The position numbers and the translations under genes were made by a program. This document shows positions 44,724 to 52,708 of a stretch of 64,000 bases of DNA, piece by piece. The notes beneath the pieces are model-generated. The model saw only the letters and a list, made by a program, of their open reading frames with translations. It was not told the origin of the DNA and made no database searches. How positions within the stretch are numbered: position 1 is the stretch's first letter; each line of letters starts with the position of its first letter. This DNA is from Gammaproteobacteria bacterium (GTDB lineage: Bacteria > Pseudomonadota > Gammaproteobacteria > Steroidobacterales > GCA-2729495), in the NCBI GenBank assembly GCA_024277915.1, contig JAJRUG010000044.1, forward strand, positions 1 through 64,000. The letters are read 5' to 3'.

Positions 44724-46544
44724 GTGCAAAAAAAAACCGTCAGTCAACCGACGGACACCACCAATCCGGATTATTACCATAGGGTCGTCGACTGTCAGTG
44801 GGCATGCCCCGCGCATACTGATGTGCCTGGCTATATCCGGTTAATCGCCCAGGGCGAATACTCCGATGCCTATCAGCTGAATCGCCATTCGAATATATTC
44901 CCCGGCATTCTGGGCAGAGTCTGTGATCGTCCCTGTGAGCCAGCCTGTCGTCGCAGCCGTATTGAAGACAAGCCGGTAGCCATTTGCAGATTAAAGCGAA
45001 TCGCAGCTGACCTGACCGATATGAACGATGTCCAGTTGCCCGAAATTGCCCCGGCAAATGGAAAACGTATTGCCTGCGTCGGGGCTGGTTGTGCATCACT
45101 GGCGCTTGCCAATGATCTTCTGCCACTAGGGTACGAGGTGGTTATTTTCGAGGCGCTGGACAGAAGTGGTGGACTGATGCGCACCAACATACCTTCATTC
45201 CGGTTGCCGCCCGAGGTGCTTGATCAGGAAATCGGAATGATCATCGGTATGGGTGCCGATATTCACTTTGATCATCCGGTAGAAAGCATGAAAACCCTGC
45301 TCGAAGAGGGCTACGACGCAATATTTGTCGGCAGCGGCGCGCCGAAAGGGAAAAATCTCGAATTGCCTGGTCGGTATGACTCTGACCGAATTCACATCGG
45401 AATCGATTGGTTGGAGTCCGTAGCATTTGAGCACACTGAGTCAATCGGCGAACGTGTGCTGATCATCGGTGTTGGCAATACCGCCATGGACTGTTGTCGT
45501 ACTTCGCTGCGGCTGGGCTCAACCGATGTCAAAGTGATGGCACGAAAGCCCAGGGCCTTTTTCAAGGCCTCTGACTGGGAGCTTGAAGACGCCGAGGAGG
45601 AAAATGTCGAGATTATTGTCAATCATTCTCCAAAGGCCTTTGTTATAGAGGATGGCAAGCTGGCCGGAATGATTTTCGAGCTGATGGAATATCAACTCGA
45701 TAGCGCTGGCCGGATTGAAAGCAGTACGGTGACAGGTGAGACCATGATTCCCTGTGATGATGTTGTGCTGGCCATCGGCCAGGACAATGCATTTCCCTGG
45801 ATCGAGCGGGATCAGGGTATAGAGTTTGATCAATGGGAAGTACCTGTTGTGGATCCGGTGACCCATCAGGGCACCAGGGCTGGCGTATTTTTCGGTGGGG
45901 ATGCTGCATTTGGCCCCAAGAACATCATTTGGGCCGTTGAGCACGGTCACCAGGCAGCAATTTCGATTCACAAATATTGTCACGGTGAGGATATTACCGA
46001 TCGATTACCCATGGGCATGAATCTCAATTCAGCCAAAATGGGGATTCATGAATGGAGTTTCAGCAACAGCTACGACTCCGGCAAAAGAATCCCGGTGCCA
46101 CAAGTACAACTTAGCGAGCGATTCAAGCAACTCAACATCGAAGTAGAGCTCGGCTTTAGCCCGGAGCTGGCTGCCGAAGAAGTGGAGCGATGTCTTAATT
46201 GCGATCTGCAGACTGTTTTCACAGAAAATCTGTGCATCGAGTGCGACGCCTGTATCGATGTCTGTCCGGTGAAATGCCTCACCATTACCGAAGCCGGCAC
46301 AGAAGATGACTTGAGAACGCGGCTCAGTGCACCGGCAGAAAACCTTGAGCAGGGATTATTGATATCCGGGGCGTTGCCCCAGACAGGCAGAGTGATGATA
46401 AAAGATGAAGATCTTTGTGTGCATTGCAGCCTGTGCGCTGAACGTTGTCCGACTGCAGCCTGGGACATGCAGAAGTTCACTTTGCTAAAACCTTGCGCCG
46501 GTGATGAATCAGTTTCCGAACCAATCAGACAATCAGGGGCATGA
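44724..46544 (+). CDS. KorC-like FAD/Fe-S NAD(P)H-oxidoreductase subunit
   Basis: A 606-residue flavoprotein that would pass electrons between the 2-oxoacid oxidoreductase and NAD(P). The N-terminal Fe-S part has VDCQWACPAHTDVPGY and CDRPCEPACRR (GltD/PreT type). FAD- and NAD(P)-binding loops follow: CVGAGCASLALAND (about 113) and LIIGVGNTAMDCC (about 247). Two ferredoxin-like 4Fe-4S clusters close it: CIECDACIDVCPVKC (about 502) and CVHCSLCAERCP (about 570). Similar FAD subunits occur in the 2-oxoglutarate:NADP oxidoreductase of Azoarcus and phenylglyoxylate oxidoreductase. GTG 44724 starts it; it overlaps the next gene by ATGA. Confidence 0.85.
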   Translation: MQKKTVSQPTDTTNPDYYHRVVDCQWACPAHTDVPGYIRLIAQGEYSDAYQLNRHSNIFPGILGRVCDRPCEPACRRSRIEDKPVAICRLKRIAADLTDMNDVQLPEIAPANGKRIACVGAGCASLALANDLLPLGYEVVIFEALDRSGGLMRTNIPSFRLPPEVLDQEIGMIIGMGADIHFDHPVESMKTLLEEGYDAIFVGSGAPKGKNLELPGRYDSDRIHIGIDWLESVAFEHTESIGERVLIIGVGNTAMDCCRTSLRLGSTDVKVMARKPRAFFKASDWELEDAEEENVEIIVNHSPKAFVIEDGKLAGMIFELMEYQLDSAGRIESSTVTGETMIPCDDVVLAIGQDNAFPWIERDQGIEFDQWEVPVVDPVTHQGTRAGVFFGGDAAFGPKNIIWAVEHGHQAAISIHKYCHGEDITDRLPMGMNLNSAKMGIHEWSFSNSYDSGKRIPVPQVQLSERFKQLNIEVELGFSPELAAEEVERCLNCDLQTVFTENLCIECDACIDVCPVKCLTITEAGTEDDLRTRLSAPAENLEQGLLISGALPQTGRVMIKDEDLCVHCSLCAERCPTAAWDMQKFTLLKPCAGDESVSEPIRQSGA

Positions 46545-48364
46545 AAACTGCTGTGATAACCGGGCCGAAGGATAATGATTTTACGATTAAGGTCGGCAAC
46601 GTAAATGGCACCGGGTCAGCGAGTGCCAATACGCTGCTGATGAAAGTGCTGTTTCGCATGGGTATTCCGGTCGTGGCGAAGAATTATTTCCCTTCCAATA
46701 TCCAGGGGTTTCCGACCTGGTATGAGATCAGGGCCAGCGAAAACGGGTACATGGCCAGATCCGGGCGTATCGATGTGATGCTGGCAATGAATGCTGAGAC
46801 CTATCAAAAGGATCTCGCGTGTGTTGCCCCGGGTGGCTACCTGATATACGACTCGACCTGGCCGCGGCACAATGTGCTGAATCGTCAGGATATTACTATT
46901 CTCGGCGTACCGCTTTCACAGCTATGCAACGATAACTTCGCTTCTTCACGAGCAAGAATTCTCATGAAGAACATCGCCTATGTAGGTGTCATGGCCGCGT
47001 TGCTCGATCTGGATATGGAGGTGGTGCGAGAGCTTCTCAACCAGAGTTTTGCCAGCAAGGCACAGTTGCTGGATGCGAATCAGCTGGCTATTGATCTGGG
47101 ATATCAGTACGCCAAAGAAAATTTTGAATGCCCCCTGCCGTTCAAGGCCACAGCGATAGGGAAGACGGACGACCACATTATCATTGATGGAAATACTGCA
47201 GCGGGTCTTGGTTGTGTCTTTGCAGGTGCGACGCTCGGCGCCTGGTATCCGATTACGCCTTCCACTTCAATTATGGATGCATTTCGGGCATTTTGTGATG
47301 AGTATCGAAAGGATCCCGTAACAGGTCTGAGCAACAGCTGTGTGATTCAGGCAGAAGATGAGCTATCGGCGATCGGCATGGTGCTGGGTGCGAGCTGGAA
47401 TGGCGCCCGGGCATTTACCTCAACCAGTGGCCCCGGCATTTCGCTGATGAACGAGTTTCTTGGTTATGGGTATTTTGCTGAAATTCCGGCGGTGCTGATC
47501 GATGTTCAACGATGCGGCCCGTCAACCGGTATGCCCACCAGGGTCCAGCAGTCAGATATACTTTCCTGCGCCTATGCATCCCATGGTGACACACGTCATG
47601 TATTGCTGTTTCCGGCCAATCCGGCCGAGTGCTTTACCATGTCGGTACAGGCATTCGATCTGGCTGAACAGCTGCAGACGCCGATCATCGTCGTCACTGA
47701 TCTTGATATCGGAATGAACGACTGGATGTGCCCGGATCTCCAGTGGGATGATAATTACCAACCCGACCGGGGCAAGGTTCTGGGCGCAGATGAACTGGAA
47801 AAAATGGAGTCTTTTCACAGGTACCTGGATACGGATGGCGATGGGATCGCATACCGGACATTACCGGGCACCCATGCGAAAGGTGCCTACTTTACACGCG
47901 GGTCAGGCCACAATATGTACGGCGCATACACGGAAGACTCTGATGAGTACAAGGAAATTGTTGATCGCTTGCTGACGAAGTGGGAAACAGCCAAGGGATT
48001 TGTTCCCCGGCCTGAGCTTCATGGCACAGATAAGAGTGGCATTGGTATTCTCTCAATAGGCAGTTGTCACGACGCTGTACTTGAGGCGCGGGATCGATTG
48101 GCAGAAGGCGGAATCAGTTTGAATTATCTGAGAGTCAGGGCTTTCCCGTTCAATTCTGAAGTGCAGGAATTTCTTGATGCTCATGATCGGATCTATGTTG
48201 TAGAACAGAACCGTGATGCTCAATTACGTGGCTTGTTGCTGCTGGAGACCAAAGTGGAACAGGACAAGCTGGTGCCGGTGCTTCACTATGATGGTTTGCC
48301 GTTGTATGCAAGGTTCATCACAGATGCAGTTCGCACAGACTTGAGCAGAGGGCAGGCAGCATGA
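46541..48364 (+). CDS. 2-oxoacid:acceptor oxidoreductase, gamma-alpha fusion (KorA-like)
   Basis: A 607-residue subunit. The N-terminal gamma domain (about 1-195) has GNVNGTGSASANTLLMKVLF and FPSNIQGFPTWYEIRAS. The alpha domain follows (about 210-600), with GATLGAWYPITPSTSIMDAF, AEDELSAIGMVLGASWNGA and ARAFTSTSGPGISLMNEF. It oxidatively decarboxylates a 2-oxoacid to its CoA thioester with KorB. It resembles 2-oxoglutarate enzymes more than pyruvate ones, but substrate cannot be settled by eye. It overlaps both neighbours by 4 bases (ATGA), so subunits are made in fixed ratio. Confidence 0.88.
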   Translation: MKTAVITGPKDNDFTIKVGNVNGTGSASANTLLMKVLFRMGIPVVAKNYFPSNIQGFPTWYEIRASENGYMARSGRIDVMLAMNAETYQKDLACVAPGGYLIYDSTWPRHNVLNRQDITILGVPLSQLCNDNFASSRARILMKNIAYVGVMAALLDLDMEVVRELLNQSFASKAQLLDANQLAIDLGYQYAKENFECPLPFKATAIGKTDDHIIIDGNTAAGLGCVFAGATLGAWYPITPSTSIMDAFRAFCDEYRKDPVTGLSNSCVIQAEDELSAIGMVLGASWNGARAFTSTSGPGISLMNEFLGYGYFAEIPAVLIDVQRCGPSTGMPTRVQQSDILSCAYASHGDTRHVLLFPANPAECFTMSVQAFDLAEQLQTPIIVVTDLDIGMNDWMCPDLQWDDNYQPDRGKVLGADELEKMESFHRYLDTDGDGIAYRTLPGTHAKGAYFTRGSGHNMYGAYTEDSDEYKEIVDRLLTKWETAKGFVPRPELHGTDKSGIGILSIGSCHDAVLEARDRLAEGGISLNYLRVRAFPFNSEVQEFLDAHDRIYVVEQNRDAQLRGLLLLETKVEQDKLVPVLHYDGLPLYARFITDAVRTDLSRGQAA

Positions 48365-49416
48365 CCTATATGCGCCGACCCAGTGTGGTACATCCCGGTT
48401 TACCGCACAATGATCTTGGACTGTCTGCTCGGGATTATGAAGGCGGCATATCCACTTTGTGTGCCGGCTGTGGTCATGATTCGGTAACCAGCGCCCTGGT
48501 GCAGACCTTGTTTGAATTGAATATCCCTCCACATCGTGTGGCCAAGCTGAGCGGTATCGGCTGTTCATCGAAGACACCAGCCTATTTTGCCAGCGCATCT
48601 CACGGATTTAATTCTGTACATGGCAGGATGCCATCAGTAGCGACGGGTGCGAATTCCGTCAATCGGGATCTCCATTACATCGGCGTGTCGGGAGACGGTG
48701 ATTCACTGTCGATTGGCTTTGGTCAGTTGTGTCATGCAATACGGCGCAACGTCAACATGCTTTATGTGATCGACAATAACGGGGTGTACGGTTTGACCAA
48801 GGGCCAGTTTTCGGCATCAGCTGATGTCGGGACTACTGCAAAAAAAGGTGAAGTGAATATTCAGCCGCCAATTGATGCGTGCCTTACGGCACTGACCATG
48901 GGCTGCACATTCGTCGCGCGAAGCTTTTCCGGAGACAAGCAACAGCTTGTGCCGCTATTGAAAGCGGGGCTGACGCACAAGGGTTTCGCACTGATCGATA
49001 TTGTGTCGCCCTGCGTCACGTTTAATGACCATCTCGGCTCAACAAAGAGCTATGATTTTACCCGCCAGCATTATCATCCGACGATTCATACTGATTTTAT
49101 CCCGCCCGCTGAGGAAATTACCGTTTCCAGTGAGGACGGTGATACGATTTCAGTTGAGCTGCATGACGGGAGTCGGGTTGTGTTAAAGAAAACTGATGAG
49201 CAATACGATCCTACAGACCGGAACTCGGCCTATGCATATCTTCAAAAACACACAGCGGCTCAGGAAGTCGTGACAGGGCTGTTGTTCATCGATGAAGCAA
49301 AGCCTGATATGCATGAAACTCACATGGTTGTTGAGCAGCCACTTATCGATATTGATTTCGATACCCTTTGTCCGAGGCGGTCTGCTCTGGAGAAAATTCA
49401 AAACCGGTTCAGATAG
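48361..49416 (+). CDS. 2-oxoacid:acceptor oxidoreductase, TPP-binding beta subunit (KorB-like)
   Basis: A 351-residue catalytic partner carrying thiamine diphosphate. The cluster/TPP entry motif is STLCAGCGHDSVTSA (about 32-46), with GIGCSSKTPAYF next. The TPP/Mg motif is GVSGDGDSLSIGFGQLCHAI ending in a DNNGVYGLTKGQ stretch (about 140-155). HNDLG and a C-terminal extension (about 270-351) differ from minimal KorB. It lacks the extra 4Fe-4S of pyruvate oxidoreductases. It is the third gene of the unit and is followed closely by a lipoprotein gene. Confidence 0.88.
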   Translation: MTYMRRPSVVHPGLPHNDLGLSARDYEGGISTLCAGCGHDSVTSALVQTLFELNIPPHRVAKLSGIGCSSKTPAYFASASHGFNSVHGRMPSVATGANSVNRDLHYIGVSGDGDSLSIGFGQLCHAIRRNVNMLYVIDNNGVYGLTKGQFSASADVGTTAKKGEVNIQPPIDACLTALTMGCTFVARSFSGDKQQLVPLLKAGLTHKGFALIDIVSPCVTFNDHLGSTKSYDFTRQHYHPTIHTDFIPPAEEITVSSEDGDTISVELHDGSRVVLKKTDEQYDPTDRNSAYAYLQKHTAAQEVVTGLLFIDEAKPDMHETHMVVEQPLIDIDFDTLCPRRSALEKIQNRFR

Positions 49417-49432
49417 ACCGGGGAGACATACA

Positions 49433-50335
49433 ATGAAGCGCCGCCTTCTTGTTGTTATTGCATTCATCATGTCGTTGACTGTCGTCGCCTGTGGCGAACC
49501 GGATGCCGTCCCGGGCCCTGAACCTGAAGCAGCTGTCCCGGCTGATAAAGATCAGGAATTTGTTGAACGCACCGCGGACGCTCATGCTGATGATGTCCCG
49601 GTCGCCAGTGAAGCTGTTGCCGCACCACCAAAAACAGAAGCTATCGGTGAATTTGTAGCCTACGGCGAGATTGGCGATGCCAATCTCCGGGGTTATCTTG
49701 CAATGCCCGCCGATGTTACCGGCCCCCTGCCCGGCGTCATTGTTATCCACGAATGGTGGGGCTTGAACGATAACATCCAGAAGATGACCGAGCGGCTGGC
49801 TGGAGAAGGGTATATGGTGCTGGCAGTCGATTTGTTTGGCGGGCAGGTAGCGGAAAATCCCAAAGACGCCCAGGCACTGATGGCCGGGATTCTCGCGGAA
49901 GCCGATCAGGCGGACAGCAATATTCAGCAGGCCTATACCTATCTTGAGCAGGCTGTCGGCGCACCCCGGATAGGTGTAATCGGCTGGTGTCTCGGCGGTG
50001 GCTGGTCTTTACGGACAGCGCTTCTATTGCCGGATCAGCTGGATGCAACAGTGATTTACTATGGTGCTGTTTCAGCCAGCGAAGAAGAGCTCGATACAAT
50101 ACAGTCGCCAATCCTCGGATTTTTCGGGTCAGAGGATGCAGCAATCCCGGTTGCGTCTGCCAGGATGTTTCGCGCCACGCTGAATCGTCTGGGGAAAAAA
50201 GCCGATGTAAGAATCTATAATGGCGCCGGTCACGCATTCGCGAATCCTTCCGGTACCAACTATCAGCCATTTGCCGCAGAAGATGCCTGGCAACGTACCC
50301 TGGCGTTTTTCCGTGAAGAGCTGTCGTCTGAGTAA
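49433..50335 (+). CDS. Dienelactone hydrolase-family lipoprotein
   Basis: A 300-residue exported hydrolase. ATG 49433 follows GGGAGACATACA. The lipobox is SLTVVAC near residue 17, followed by an Ala/Pro/Glu-rich linker (about 20-70). The DLH fold follows, with IHEWWGLNDNIQ, the nucleophile Cys in IGWCLGGGW (about 183), the Asp in GSEDAAIP (about 235) and the His in GAGHAFAN (about 267). All three triad residues are intact. It lies 16 bp after the KorB-like gene and may be cotranscribed, though a lipoprotein is an unusual partner. The substrate is unknown. Confidence 0.88.
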   Translation: MKRRLLVVIAFIMSLTVVACGEPDAVPGPEPEAAVPADKDQEFVERTADAHADDVPVASEAVAAPPKTEAIGEFVAYGEIGDANLRGYLAMPADVTGPLPGVIVIHEWWGLNDNIQKMTERLAGEGYMVLAVDLFGGQVAENPKDAQALMAGILAEADQADSNIQQAYTYLEQAVGAPRIGVIGWCLGGGWSLRTALLLPDQLDATVIYYGAVSASEEELDTIQSPILGFFGSEDAAIPVASARMFRATLNRLGKKADVRIYNGAGHAFANPSGTNYQPFAAEDAWQRTLAFFREELSSE

Positions 50336-50371: not shown

Positions 50372-50596
50372 AGCTGACAGGAAAAAAAGGGCAGCATGGC
50401 TGAGGGGGAAGTAGAGTAGTCCTGACTAAGGTGACTACACCAGCCATGCCGCCGGTCTCAAATGCGAGTTTTATTGGAGGAGAAGTCCCGCATACTTCTG
50501 TTCTTCATTCTTATGCCCCGGTCTTGCCAGAAGCTACCCGGCTGTAGCCAGAAATAGCCCCGCGCAGGCAATCCGGGAGCCGCGCCGATGTTCTGC

Positions 50597-50710
50597 TCAG
50601 GCCACTGCAGCAGCAACTGTCACGATAAACATGGCGACGGCGGCGACAACAAACGCTATGGTTGCGAAGCCACGATAAATAGTGGTTCGGTTTCGAATCA
50701 AGGTGGTCAT
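50597..50710 (-). CDS. 37-residue single-span membrane peptide under sigma-54 control
   Basis: A short frame starts at ATG 50710, preceded by GCAGGAACAGTACC as ribosome binding site. It encodes MTTLIRNRTTIYRGFA, then a hydrophobic run of about 20 residues (TIAFVVAAVAMFIVTVAAAV) and a stop. The basic N-terminus and single span predict insertion with the N-terminus in the cytoplasm. No family was recognised. A near-consensus -24/-12 promoter lies 65 bases upstream, and a sigma-54 activator is encoded divergently 192 bp away. The promoter makes the small frame far more credible than its length alone would. Confidence 0.65.
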   Translation of the reverse strand: MTTLIRNRTTIYRGFATIAFVVAAVAMFIVTVAAAVA

Positions 50711-50774
50711 GGTACTGTTCCTGCTGTTGGTTAATTAATGTGTGCTTTTATATCTGCACTGATGCAATCTATAT

Positions 50775-50790
50775 TGCACAAAGCGTGCCA
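50775..50790 (-). promoter_or_regulatory. Sigma-54 (-24/-12) promoter
   Basis: Read on the minus strand the 16 bases are TGGCACG-CTTT-GTGCA, matching the sigma-54 consensus TGGCACG-N4-TTGCA except for one position. The GG and GC dinucleotides have the required spacing. It points toward the 37-residue peptide gene, with transcription expected near 50763 and a leader of about 50 bases. Confidence 0.82.
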
Positions 50791-50854
50791 ACTATCGATC
50801 TTTTATTTATCAATAACTTATCAGCATACAATACTCACGGAATTCCATGAATAG

Positions 50855-50887
50855 CGGTTTTTCGTGAATTAGTTTCACGAAAAACCG
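50855..50887. promoter_or_regulatory. Perfect 14-bp inverted repeat, candidate enhancer/operator
   Basis: CGGTTTTTCGTGAA (50855-50868) and TTCACGAAAAACCG (50874-50887) form perfect arms around 5 bases. It lies about 65-110 bases upstream of the sigma-54 promoter, the normal distance for an activator's upstream site, and 15 bases before the activator's own ATG, allowing autoregulation. A second dyad, TCACGGAATTCCATGA (50835-50850), lies next to it. Confidence 0.7.
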
Positions 50888-50902
50888 TGTATACTCTCTG
50901 CC

Positions 50903-52708
50903 ATGTACGCAGATGAAGGACTCACAGCGCTATTTCACAAGCTACCGGTTGTCGCGGCTTTGATGGATGCCGATGGCTGCTTTATCACCGTCAGTGATGC
51001 CTGGGTGGATTGCGTTGGTTACAGTCGAGATGAGATACGTGGCAAAACGGCACTCAATATTGCGACTCCGGAAACAGTAACCAGAATCCGGCAGGAGCAC
51101 CTGCCTCAGCTCCGCCGGTCCGGCCGCCTCGACAACGTCCCTGTTGAATTCATCACGAAGAGTGGCGAGCAGGTAGAACTGTTCGCGACAACCATTGTTG
51201 AAAATGATGCCAATGGACAGTTTCTGCATTCACTATCTGTTTTCACAGAGCCCTCTGATCGAGCACGGCTGGAACGCCGCTATCGCATGTTGTACCAGGA
51301 CACGCCGGCTATGCTGCATACCATTGATGCAGATGGGCGGATCACGGCAGTCACAGATCACTGGCTGGAGAAACTGGGCTACCGCAGAGATGAAGTGATC
51401 GGCCGGCCGGCTCTCGCATTTTTGTCAGAAGATTCACAACGTGAAGTGGTCGGCGAAGGGATAACAGATATCCTTGAGTACGGTGATCGCAAGAATGTCC
51501 CGCGACAACTGATCACCAAATCCGGTGAGGTGATAGATGTTCTGATGTCGACCCGAACCGAGCGTGACGAACATGACGGAGTCATTCGCCTTCTGGTCGC
51601 CAGCAAGGATGTTACCGAGCGTAATCGTTCGGAGGCAAAGTTGCGTGAAGCCTATGATGAAATCGGTCGACTCAAGGAAGAACTGGAAAGAGAGCGCGAT
51701 TACCTGCGGGAAGAAATCGATGTATCGATGAACTTCGGCAGAATAGTCGGTGAAAGCCCGGCGCTTGCTGCGATGCTGGCAAGAATCGAAGCAGTGGCCA
51801 GTACCCCGGCAAGCGTGCTGATCATCGGAGAAACAGGCACCGGAAAGGAACTGGTTGCGCACGCGATCCACGCCAGAAGCAGCCGCGCCGACGGCCCGCT
51901 GGTCAAGGTCAATTGCGCATCGATACCCGACGAACTCTTCGAAAGCGAGTTTTTTGGCCATGTGCGCGGCGCGTTTACCGGTGCTCATCGCGATCGTGTA
52001 GGCCGCTTCCAGCTTGCTGACGGCGGCACGATATTTCTTGATGAAGTTGGTGAAATCCCGATAGAGCTGCAGGGAAAGCTGCTGCGAGTATTGCAGGAGA
52101 GAGAGTTTGAGAGGGTGGGGGATGATACAACCAGAAGCGTCGATGTAAGAGTGATCGCCGCGACCAATCGGGATCTGGAAAAAGCAGTTGAGGCCGGCGA
52201 GTTTCGGGAAGATCTGTTTTATCGTATTAGTGTTTTCCCGGTGCATGTTCCACCGTTGCGCAAGCGCGGTAACGACGTGCTTCAACTTGCCATACATTTT
52301 CTCGAGCATGTTTGCCGCGACTTCGGGCGACCTGTTCCAGCACTTACCCAGAAACAGGCAGATGCGCTTGGCAAATATGACTGGCCAGGCAATATTCGTG
52401 AATTAAAGAACGTTATTGAGCGTGCTGTCATCCTGTCTGGCGAAGGGCCATTGCGACTGGATCTTTCACTGGCAAGTGCCGGTCTCAGTCCGCCGGGTGA
52501 TGAGGATTTGCCGATCAGTGTTCAGTCGGTCAACAGATTTATCACCGAGGCGGAAATGAAAATACGCCAGCGAGATAATATTCGTGCAGCACTCGAATTC
52601 GCGAACTGGCGGATCTCCGGGAAAAAAGGTGCCGCCGAGCTATTGGGAATTAACCCAAGCACCCTGACAGACCGCATCAAAACCTTCGGCCTGAAAAAAC
52701 CAGGCTAG
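50903..52708 (+). CDS. PAS-PAS sigma-54-dependent transcription activator
   Basis: A 601-residue enhancer-binding protein. Two PAS domains (about 8-125 and 130-250) form the sensor: both begin with DADG and carry GYSRDEI or GYRRDEV. A coiled linker (about 250-280) is followed by the AAA+ domain. It has Walker A GETGTGKE (about 310), the sigma-54 contact GAFTGA (about 355), Walker B GGTIFLDEVGEI and the arginine fingers near FREDLFYRISVFPVH. The C-terminal Fis-type HTH (about 555-598) has ELLGINPSTLTDRIKTF. There is no receiver domain, so control is by ligand, redox or heme at the PAS domains. Its likely target is the divergent peptide gene. Confidence 0.93.
   Translation: MYADEGLTALFHKLPVVAALMDADGCFITVSDAWVDCVGYSRDEIRGKTALNIATPETVTRIRQEHLPQLRRSGRLDNVPVEFITKSGEQVELFATTIVENDANGQFLHSLSVFTEPSDRARLERRYRMLYQDTPAMLHTIDADGRITAVTDHWLEKLGYRRDEVIGRPALAFLSEDSQREVVGEGITDILEYGDRKNVPRQLITKSGEVIDVLMSTRTERDEHDGVIRLLVASKDVTERNRSEAKLREAYDEIGRLKEELERERDYLREEIDVSMNFGRIVGESPALAAMLARIEAVASTPASVLIIGETGTGKELVAHAIHARSSRADGPLVKVNCASIPDELFESEFFGHVRGAFTGAHRDRVGRFQLADGGTIFLDEVGEIPIELQGKLLRVLQEREFERVGDDTTRSVDVRVIAATNRDLEKAVEAGEFREDLFYRISVFPVHVPPLRKRGNDVLQLAIHFLEHVCRDFGRPVPALTQKQADALGKYDWPGNIRELKNVIERAVILSGEGPLRLDLSLASAGLSPPGDEDLPISVQSVNRFITEAEMKIRQRDNIRAALEFANWRISGKKGAAELLGINPSTLTDRIKTFGLKKPG

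Follow-up and report, generated by a model that had tools for sequence, protein, structure and literature searches.

Several described systems share individual features with the locus analysed here. In Escherichia coli, norVW is governed by NorR, a divergently encoded bEBP for which three tandem enhancer sites are needed for assembly (PMC2941729), and CynF, the cyanate assimilation regulator of the Pseudomonas pseudoalcaligenes cyn cluster, has a divergent, single-target layout with a putative sigma-54 promoter (PMC6627978). Among small RNAs (sRNAs), sX13 of Xanthomonas forms stable hairpins with C-rich loops, which act on G-rich motifs near start codons independently of Hfq (PMC3771888); GlnZ is released from the 3′ UTR of the RpoN-dependent glnA mRNA (PMC9731577); and in the CIN1/CcaF1-CcsR1-4 locus of alphaproteobacteria, a small protein gene is co-transcribed with sRNAs and a Rho-independent terminator lies at the end (PMC10253847). 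The locus described here lies in a 64,000-nt stretch of gammaproteobacterial DNA (the window), and no description of it was found in the open-licence literature on sigma-54-dependent sRNAs, C-rich-loop sRNAs, and a related organism. We interpret it, with reasonable confidence, as an sRNA locus that is activated through sigma-54 and in which a micropeptide is optional; its C-rich loops would act in the manner of sX13. The peptide is real, and the RNA is probably the main product of the locus. The locus differs from GlnZ, which is under NtrC and nitrogen control, accompanies a large enzyme ORF, and is unrelated in sequence.

The activator gene occupies positions 50903–52708 (+ strand; 601 aa). 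Pfam detected two PAS domains, a sigma-54 AAA+ domain (PF00158, E-value 2e−72), and a Fis-type HTH (PF02954), and detected no receiver domain in the protein, in agreement with the first-pass annotation, which had described a divergent activator with two PAS domains and no receiver. The AAA+ sigma-54 interaction domain with its GAFTGA loop and the C-terminal Fis HTH are the features expected of a bEBP, as are the upstream activator sites and the −24/−12 promoter predicted at the locus, and the GAFTGA motif was intact in 62/62 aligned orthologues. The nearest NCBIfam models were NorR and NifA, but the scores fell below every equivalog cut-off; against the curated NorR model the activator scored 367 bits (cut-off, 476), and it has PAS domains and no GAF sensor, so it does not qualify as NorR. 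Thus, the locus resembles that of NorR in having a divergent bEBP and three tandem sites, whereas NorR detects NO with its GAF domain and has an enzyme operon as target; the activator here carries a pair of PAS domains, and its operator differs. In the orthologue alignment, residues H139 and W154 of the second PAS domain were highly conserved and the first PAS domain was not; a single weak PDB match was obtained, which was uninformative on the ligand. A stress or redox role, which had been suggested for the circuit, found no support at the locus. The source genome encodes RpoN (two genes) and Hfq; the sigma-54 DNA-binding domain was present in two proteins (G000:C131:5811-6287 and G000:C106:73388-73855), indicating two RpoN copies.

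The activator was searched against 60 related genomes and a public genome collection, and loci with 56–87% activator identity were treated as orthologous, 64 of which were left once redundancy was removed. A −24/−12 site on the strand opposite the activator was present in all of them, nearly always 124–131 bp from the activator start. In the window it corresponds to TGGCACGCTTTGTGCA at positions 50775–50790 (− strand), with a predicted transcript start near 50763 (− strand); this promoter had already been proposed from the window alone, and its recurrence in every orthologous locus was far above chance. An alignment of the intergenic regions revealed three tandem palindromic operators with the consensus ACGRNNNNYCGT, represented in the window by ACGGAATTCCAT (operator 1, positions 50837–50848), GCGGTTTTTCGT (operator 2, 50854–50865), and ACGAAAAACCGT (operator 3, 50877–50888). 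Their start-to-start spacing was 17 bp in 57/64 loci for one interval and 22–23 bp in 59/64 for the other, and the array was conserved in 62/64 loci with no more than two mismatches in total, compared with at least six in shuffled sequence. The 14-bp inverted repeat reported earlier is present and perfect (CGGTTTTTCGTGAA / TTCACGAAAAACCG, positions 50855–50868 and 50874–50887); however, it is not one unit, its left and right arms being operators 2 and 3 of the conserved three. The conserved array likewise ruled out the repeat as a single operator or a terminator.

When the family genomes were scanned with a two-site operator pattern (up to one mismatch), approximately one match per genome was found at the activator, and the other matches were G+C-rich and no more frequent than those of a control pattern; the window's own array matched only when two mismatches were allowed. 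A combined promoter-plus-operator pattern also singled out the activator locus, amid few chance matches. No larger regulon with tandem operators was seen across the family genomes in these scans, which cover tandem, not single-site, targets, and the finding of one tandem-operator target per genome upholds the dedicated one-target circuit postulated in the first-pass annotation. On the activator side, a candidate sigma-70 −10 box, TATACT (positions 50890–50895, + strand), is conserved just after operator 3, and therefore autorepression of the activator through this operator is likely. Between the end of the box and the activator ATG lie 7 bp, an arrangement that is also conserved, and the activator may have a leaderless mRNA that starts at or near the start codon.

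The genes neighbouring these loci were often shared, so the locus looks vertically inherited: a convergent dienelactone-hydrolase gene was common to 36/72 loci, many of which were too short to show it. In the window, positions 44724–50335 hold a gene cluster for a 2-oxoacid:ferredoxin oxidoreductase and, after it, the dienelactone-hydrolase-family gene, which converges on the RNA. The window DNA gave no match to plasmid sequences. One locus of the type found in family f7 (L121 on G031:C115, a contig apparently identical to that of L049) occurred in a genome placed in family f1, in which contamination is 6% and a partial f1-type locus forms a second copy; the f7-type locus there is probably a binning error.

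More distant homologues of the activator (42–53% identity) often had an opposite-strand −24/−12 site, but beside enzymes or transporters. The neighbouring products, read from translations, included cyanase (L104 and L111), substrate-binding transport proteins (L103 and L113), SnoaL-like proteins (L092, L130, and L131), a glutaredoxin (L082), and a glutathione transferase (L090). The two cyanase-linked homologues come from Pseudomonas (46–47% identity) and carry the opposite-strand −24/−12 site and the same operator consensus, which connects the locus with CynF through gene context; the targets of CynF, however, are cyanate transport and cyanase enzymes and not an RNA. The same consensus was also found beside the transport gene of L103 (a Rhodospirillaceae bin), in three copies with spacings of 17 and 22 bp. 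These operators beside cyanase- and transport-linked homologues predict the binding site of CynF-type regulators. Since the distant homologues and CynF share the divergent sigma-54 layout with enzyme or transport targets, an older divergent sigma-54 module seems to have acquired an RNA target specifically in this clade. A different, CACAGAAATTTGTG-like repeat type was found upstream of L079, L085, L092, and L131, which have SnoaL-like or other targets, suggesting that DNA specificity has changed in this group of activators.

Downstream of the promoter, the ORF at positions 50597–50710 (− strand) encodes a 37-aa single-span micropeptide (MTTLIRNRTTIYRGFATIAFVVAAVAMFIVTVAAAVA; hydropathy maximum, 2.7–2.9), preceded by a plausible ribosome-binding site, AGGA, within CAGCAGGAACAGTACC. 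Comparison with the only congener gave 20.5 synonymous differences over 31.3 sites and 10.5 non-synonymous differences over 79.7 sites (dS 1.54, dN 0.14), indicating that the ORF is under purifying selection and is therefore very probably translated; this supports the single-span peptide predicted in the first-pass annotation. Its equivalents at the same place in other genera range from 30 to approximately 115 residues, always have an N-terminal hydrophobic segment, and, where longer, run on into a probably exported domain. Three ORFs missed by the automatic filter (L010, L020, and L053) were shown by other inspection, no convincing ORF was found in L032, and a weak TTG frame passed by the filter in L012 was discounted because it runs through the terminator. 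The seven loci of genus g8 (L011, L012, L017, L022, L027, L120, and L127) contained no credible ORF; an ORF is present in both sister genera and in other families, so its absence here is most simply explained as a loss. Accordingly, of the two elements expected to recur beside orthologous activators, the −24/−12 site did so in all loci and the ORF in most lineages, but not in g8. In four g8 loci (L011, L012, L022, and L120), a thioredoxin-like gene lies beyond the RNA terminator, in the same orientation.

These comparisons bear on whether the output of the circuit is the membrane micropeptide itself (a small exported protein in relatives), with the RNA as nothing but an untranslated tail and terminator. 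The purifying selection on the ORF and the hydrophobic N-terminal segment, which most lineages keep at a constant distance from the promoter, would fit such an output. However, the peptide varies widely in length and sequence, whereas the RNA, the more constant output, is kept in the orthologous loci and covaries, and the g8 loci retain the promoter, operators, C-rich hairpins, and terminator without an ORF. The g8 loci rule out the peptide as the sole output, and we regard this explanation, which was that of the first-pass annotation, as unlikely; an sRNA locus with an optional micropeptide accounts better for the RNA described below.

In the orthologous loci, which come from several bacterial families, C-rich-loop hairpins lie 3′ of the promoter, and of the ORF where there is one, and lead into an intrinsic terminator; in g8, a 143–167-nt RNA is kept together with the promoter and operators. 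The structured module of the window spans positions 50383–50493 (− strand). It is predicted to fold into a hairpin, AUGCGGG-[ACUUCUCCUCCAAUAAAA]-CUCGCAU, with a C-rich, anti-Shine-Dalgarno-like loop (positions 50462–50493), and a terminal hairpin with a single-stranded CUUCCCCCUC followed by U7 (positions 50383–50453), which would serve as the intrinsic terminator and a second C-rich element. The loop segment ACTTCTCCTCCAA was identical in the congener, whereas the spacer preceding it had drifted. Across 53 loci, the last 230 nt contained 107 runs of five or more Cs, compared with a mean of 49 (maximum, 61) in dinucleotide shuffles, and only 11 such runs of G. The mean unpaired probability was 0.78 for C in runs of four or more and 0.28 for other C, so that the hairpins expose C-tracts, as in known C-rich-loop sRNAs. 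The median fold z-score of these loci was −4.3, a value inflated by the selection of terminators partly by stability; in the window, the full-length RNA folded only modestly better than shuffles (z −1.2), and the 3′ module alone gave z −2.7. Judged from sequence, the span from the −24/−12 promoter to the intrinsic terminator has the architecture of a sigma-54-dependent sRNA. No Rfam 15 family reached its gathering threshold, which ruled out a known Rfam RNA, and an attenuator or riboswitch for a downstream gene is unlikely, as the next gene on that side of the window is convergent.

Strong covariation supported the structure. For the RNA type of family f7, 80.5% of cells in 14 loci were paired, compared with 19–41% for slid structures. 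In 35 loci, 113 cells had two-sided changes compared with 41 in shuffles (0/500), in an alignment that was fitted to, and leans towards, the model, and the C-loop hairpin showed two-sided changes in 10/11 pairs. In the window type (8 loci), 9/19 pairs of the terminal hairpin did so. A covariance model built on f7 (R1) matched 18 of the 147 genomes of the order, once each and all in f7, and the activator adjoined the match in 18/18. R1 did not recognise the RNAs of the window family, and the RNA homology there thus rests on position, plan, and terminator alignment.

The likeness of the locus RNA to sX13, several hairpins with C-rich loops, is one of architecture, with no sequence homology evident; sX13 is 115 nt long, has no ORF, and is not known to be under a dedicated divergent sigma-54 activator. 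The repeated, exposed C-tracts in variable context could alternatively form a multivalent protein site, making the RNA a sponge that binds a protein instead of mRNAs. No protein of such specificity was identified, however, and the better-studied C-rich-loop RNAs pair with mRNAs (PMC3771888), so we consider this very improbable. Another alternative, somewhat less likely than a micropeptide output, is a bipartite locus whose peptide acts on the co-made RNA through processing, stability, or membrane localisation. In most lineages, both peptide and RNA are conserved on a single predicted transcript, the peptide has repeatedly been cut down to the membrane segment with the RNA left in place, and CcaF1 with the CcsR RNAs of Rhodobacter sphaeroides offers a precedent (PMC10253847). 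That system, however, uses an RpoHI/RpoHII promoter, has no divergent activator, and places a DUF1127 RNA-binding protein upstream of CCUCCUCCC-type RNAs; the peptide here had no Pfam match and no DUF1127-like RNA-binding features, and the g8 RNAs occur without a peptide.

For the preferred sRNA locus, we propose the following mechanism. The PAS activator would bind the three tandem palindromes between the genes and oligomerise and, on receiving its signal, would drive sigma-54 RNA polymerase at the divergent −24/−12 promoter; operator 3 probably also lets it curb its own sigma-70 transcription. The predicted transcript of approximately 380 nt would encode in its 5′ part a short membrane or exported peptide in most lineages (37 aa here) and carry in its 3′ part the C-rich-loop structure closed by the terminator. 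The 3′ part is most likely a trans-acting sRNA, active whole or once released by processing, whose C-rich loops would pair with G-rich ribosome-binding sites. A target scan with one simple pattern, the complement of the first C-rich loop, returned no gene common to the two congeneric genomes. The promoter, operators, activator orthology, coding selection, RNA structure, terminator, and single locus were all read from the sequence. We further suggest, tentatively, that these loci constitute a new family of sigma-54-activated dual-function RNAs, in which one transcript under a private PAS sensor combines a short membrane leader peptide with a C-rich-loop regulatory RNA, in several environmental gammaproteobacterial families; in such RNAs, translation of the membrane segment might help to place or mature the RNA.

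Woeseiaceae is a group known from marine sediment. The locus is recognisable in dozens of uncultured gammaproteobacteria, many of them titled Woeseiaceae, and extends the short list of sigma-54-dependent sRNAs by one lineage. What had been a hypothetical micropeptide thereby becomes a conserved, testable regulatory locus with one sensor, one promoter, and one RNA, and its long, short, and lost ORFs provide a natural series for asking whether the peptide or the RNA is selected.
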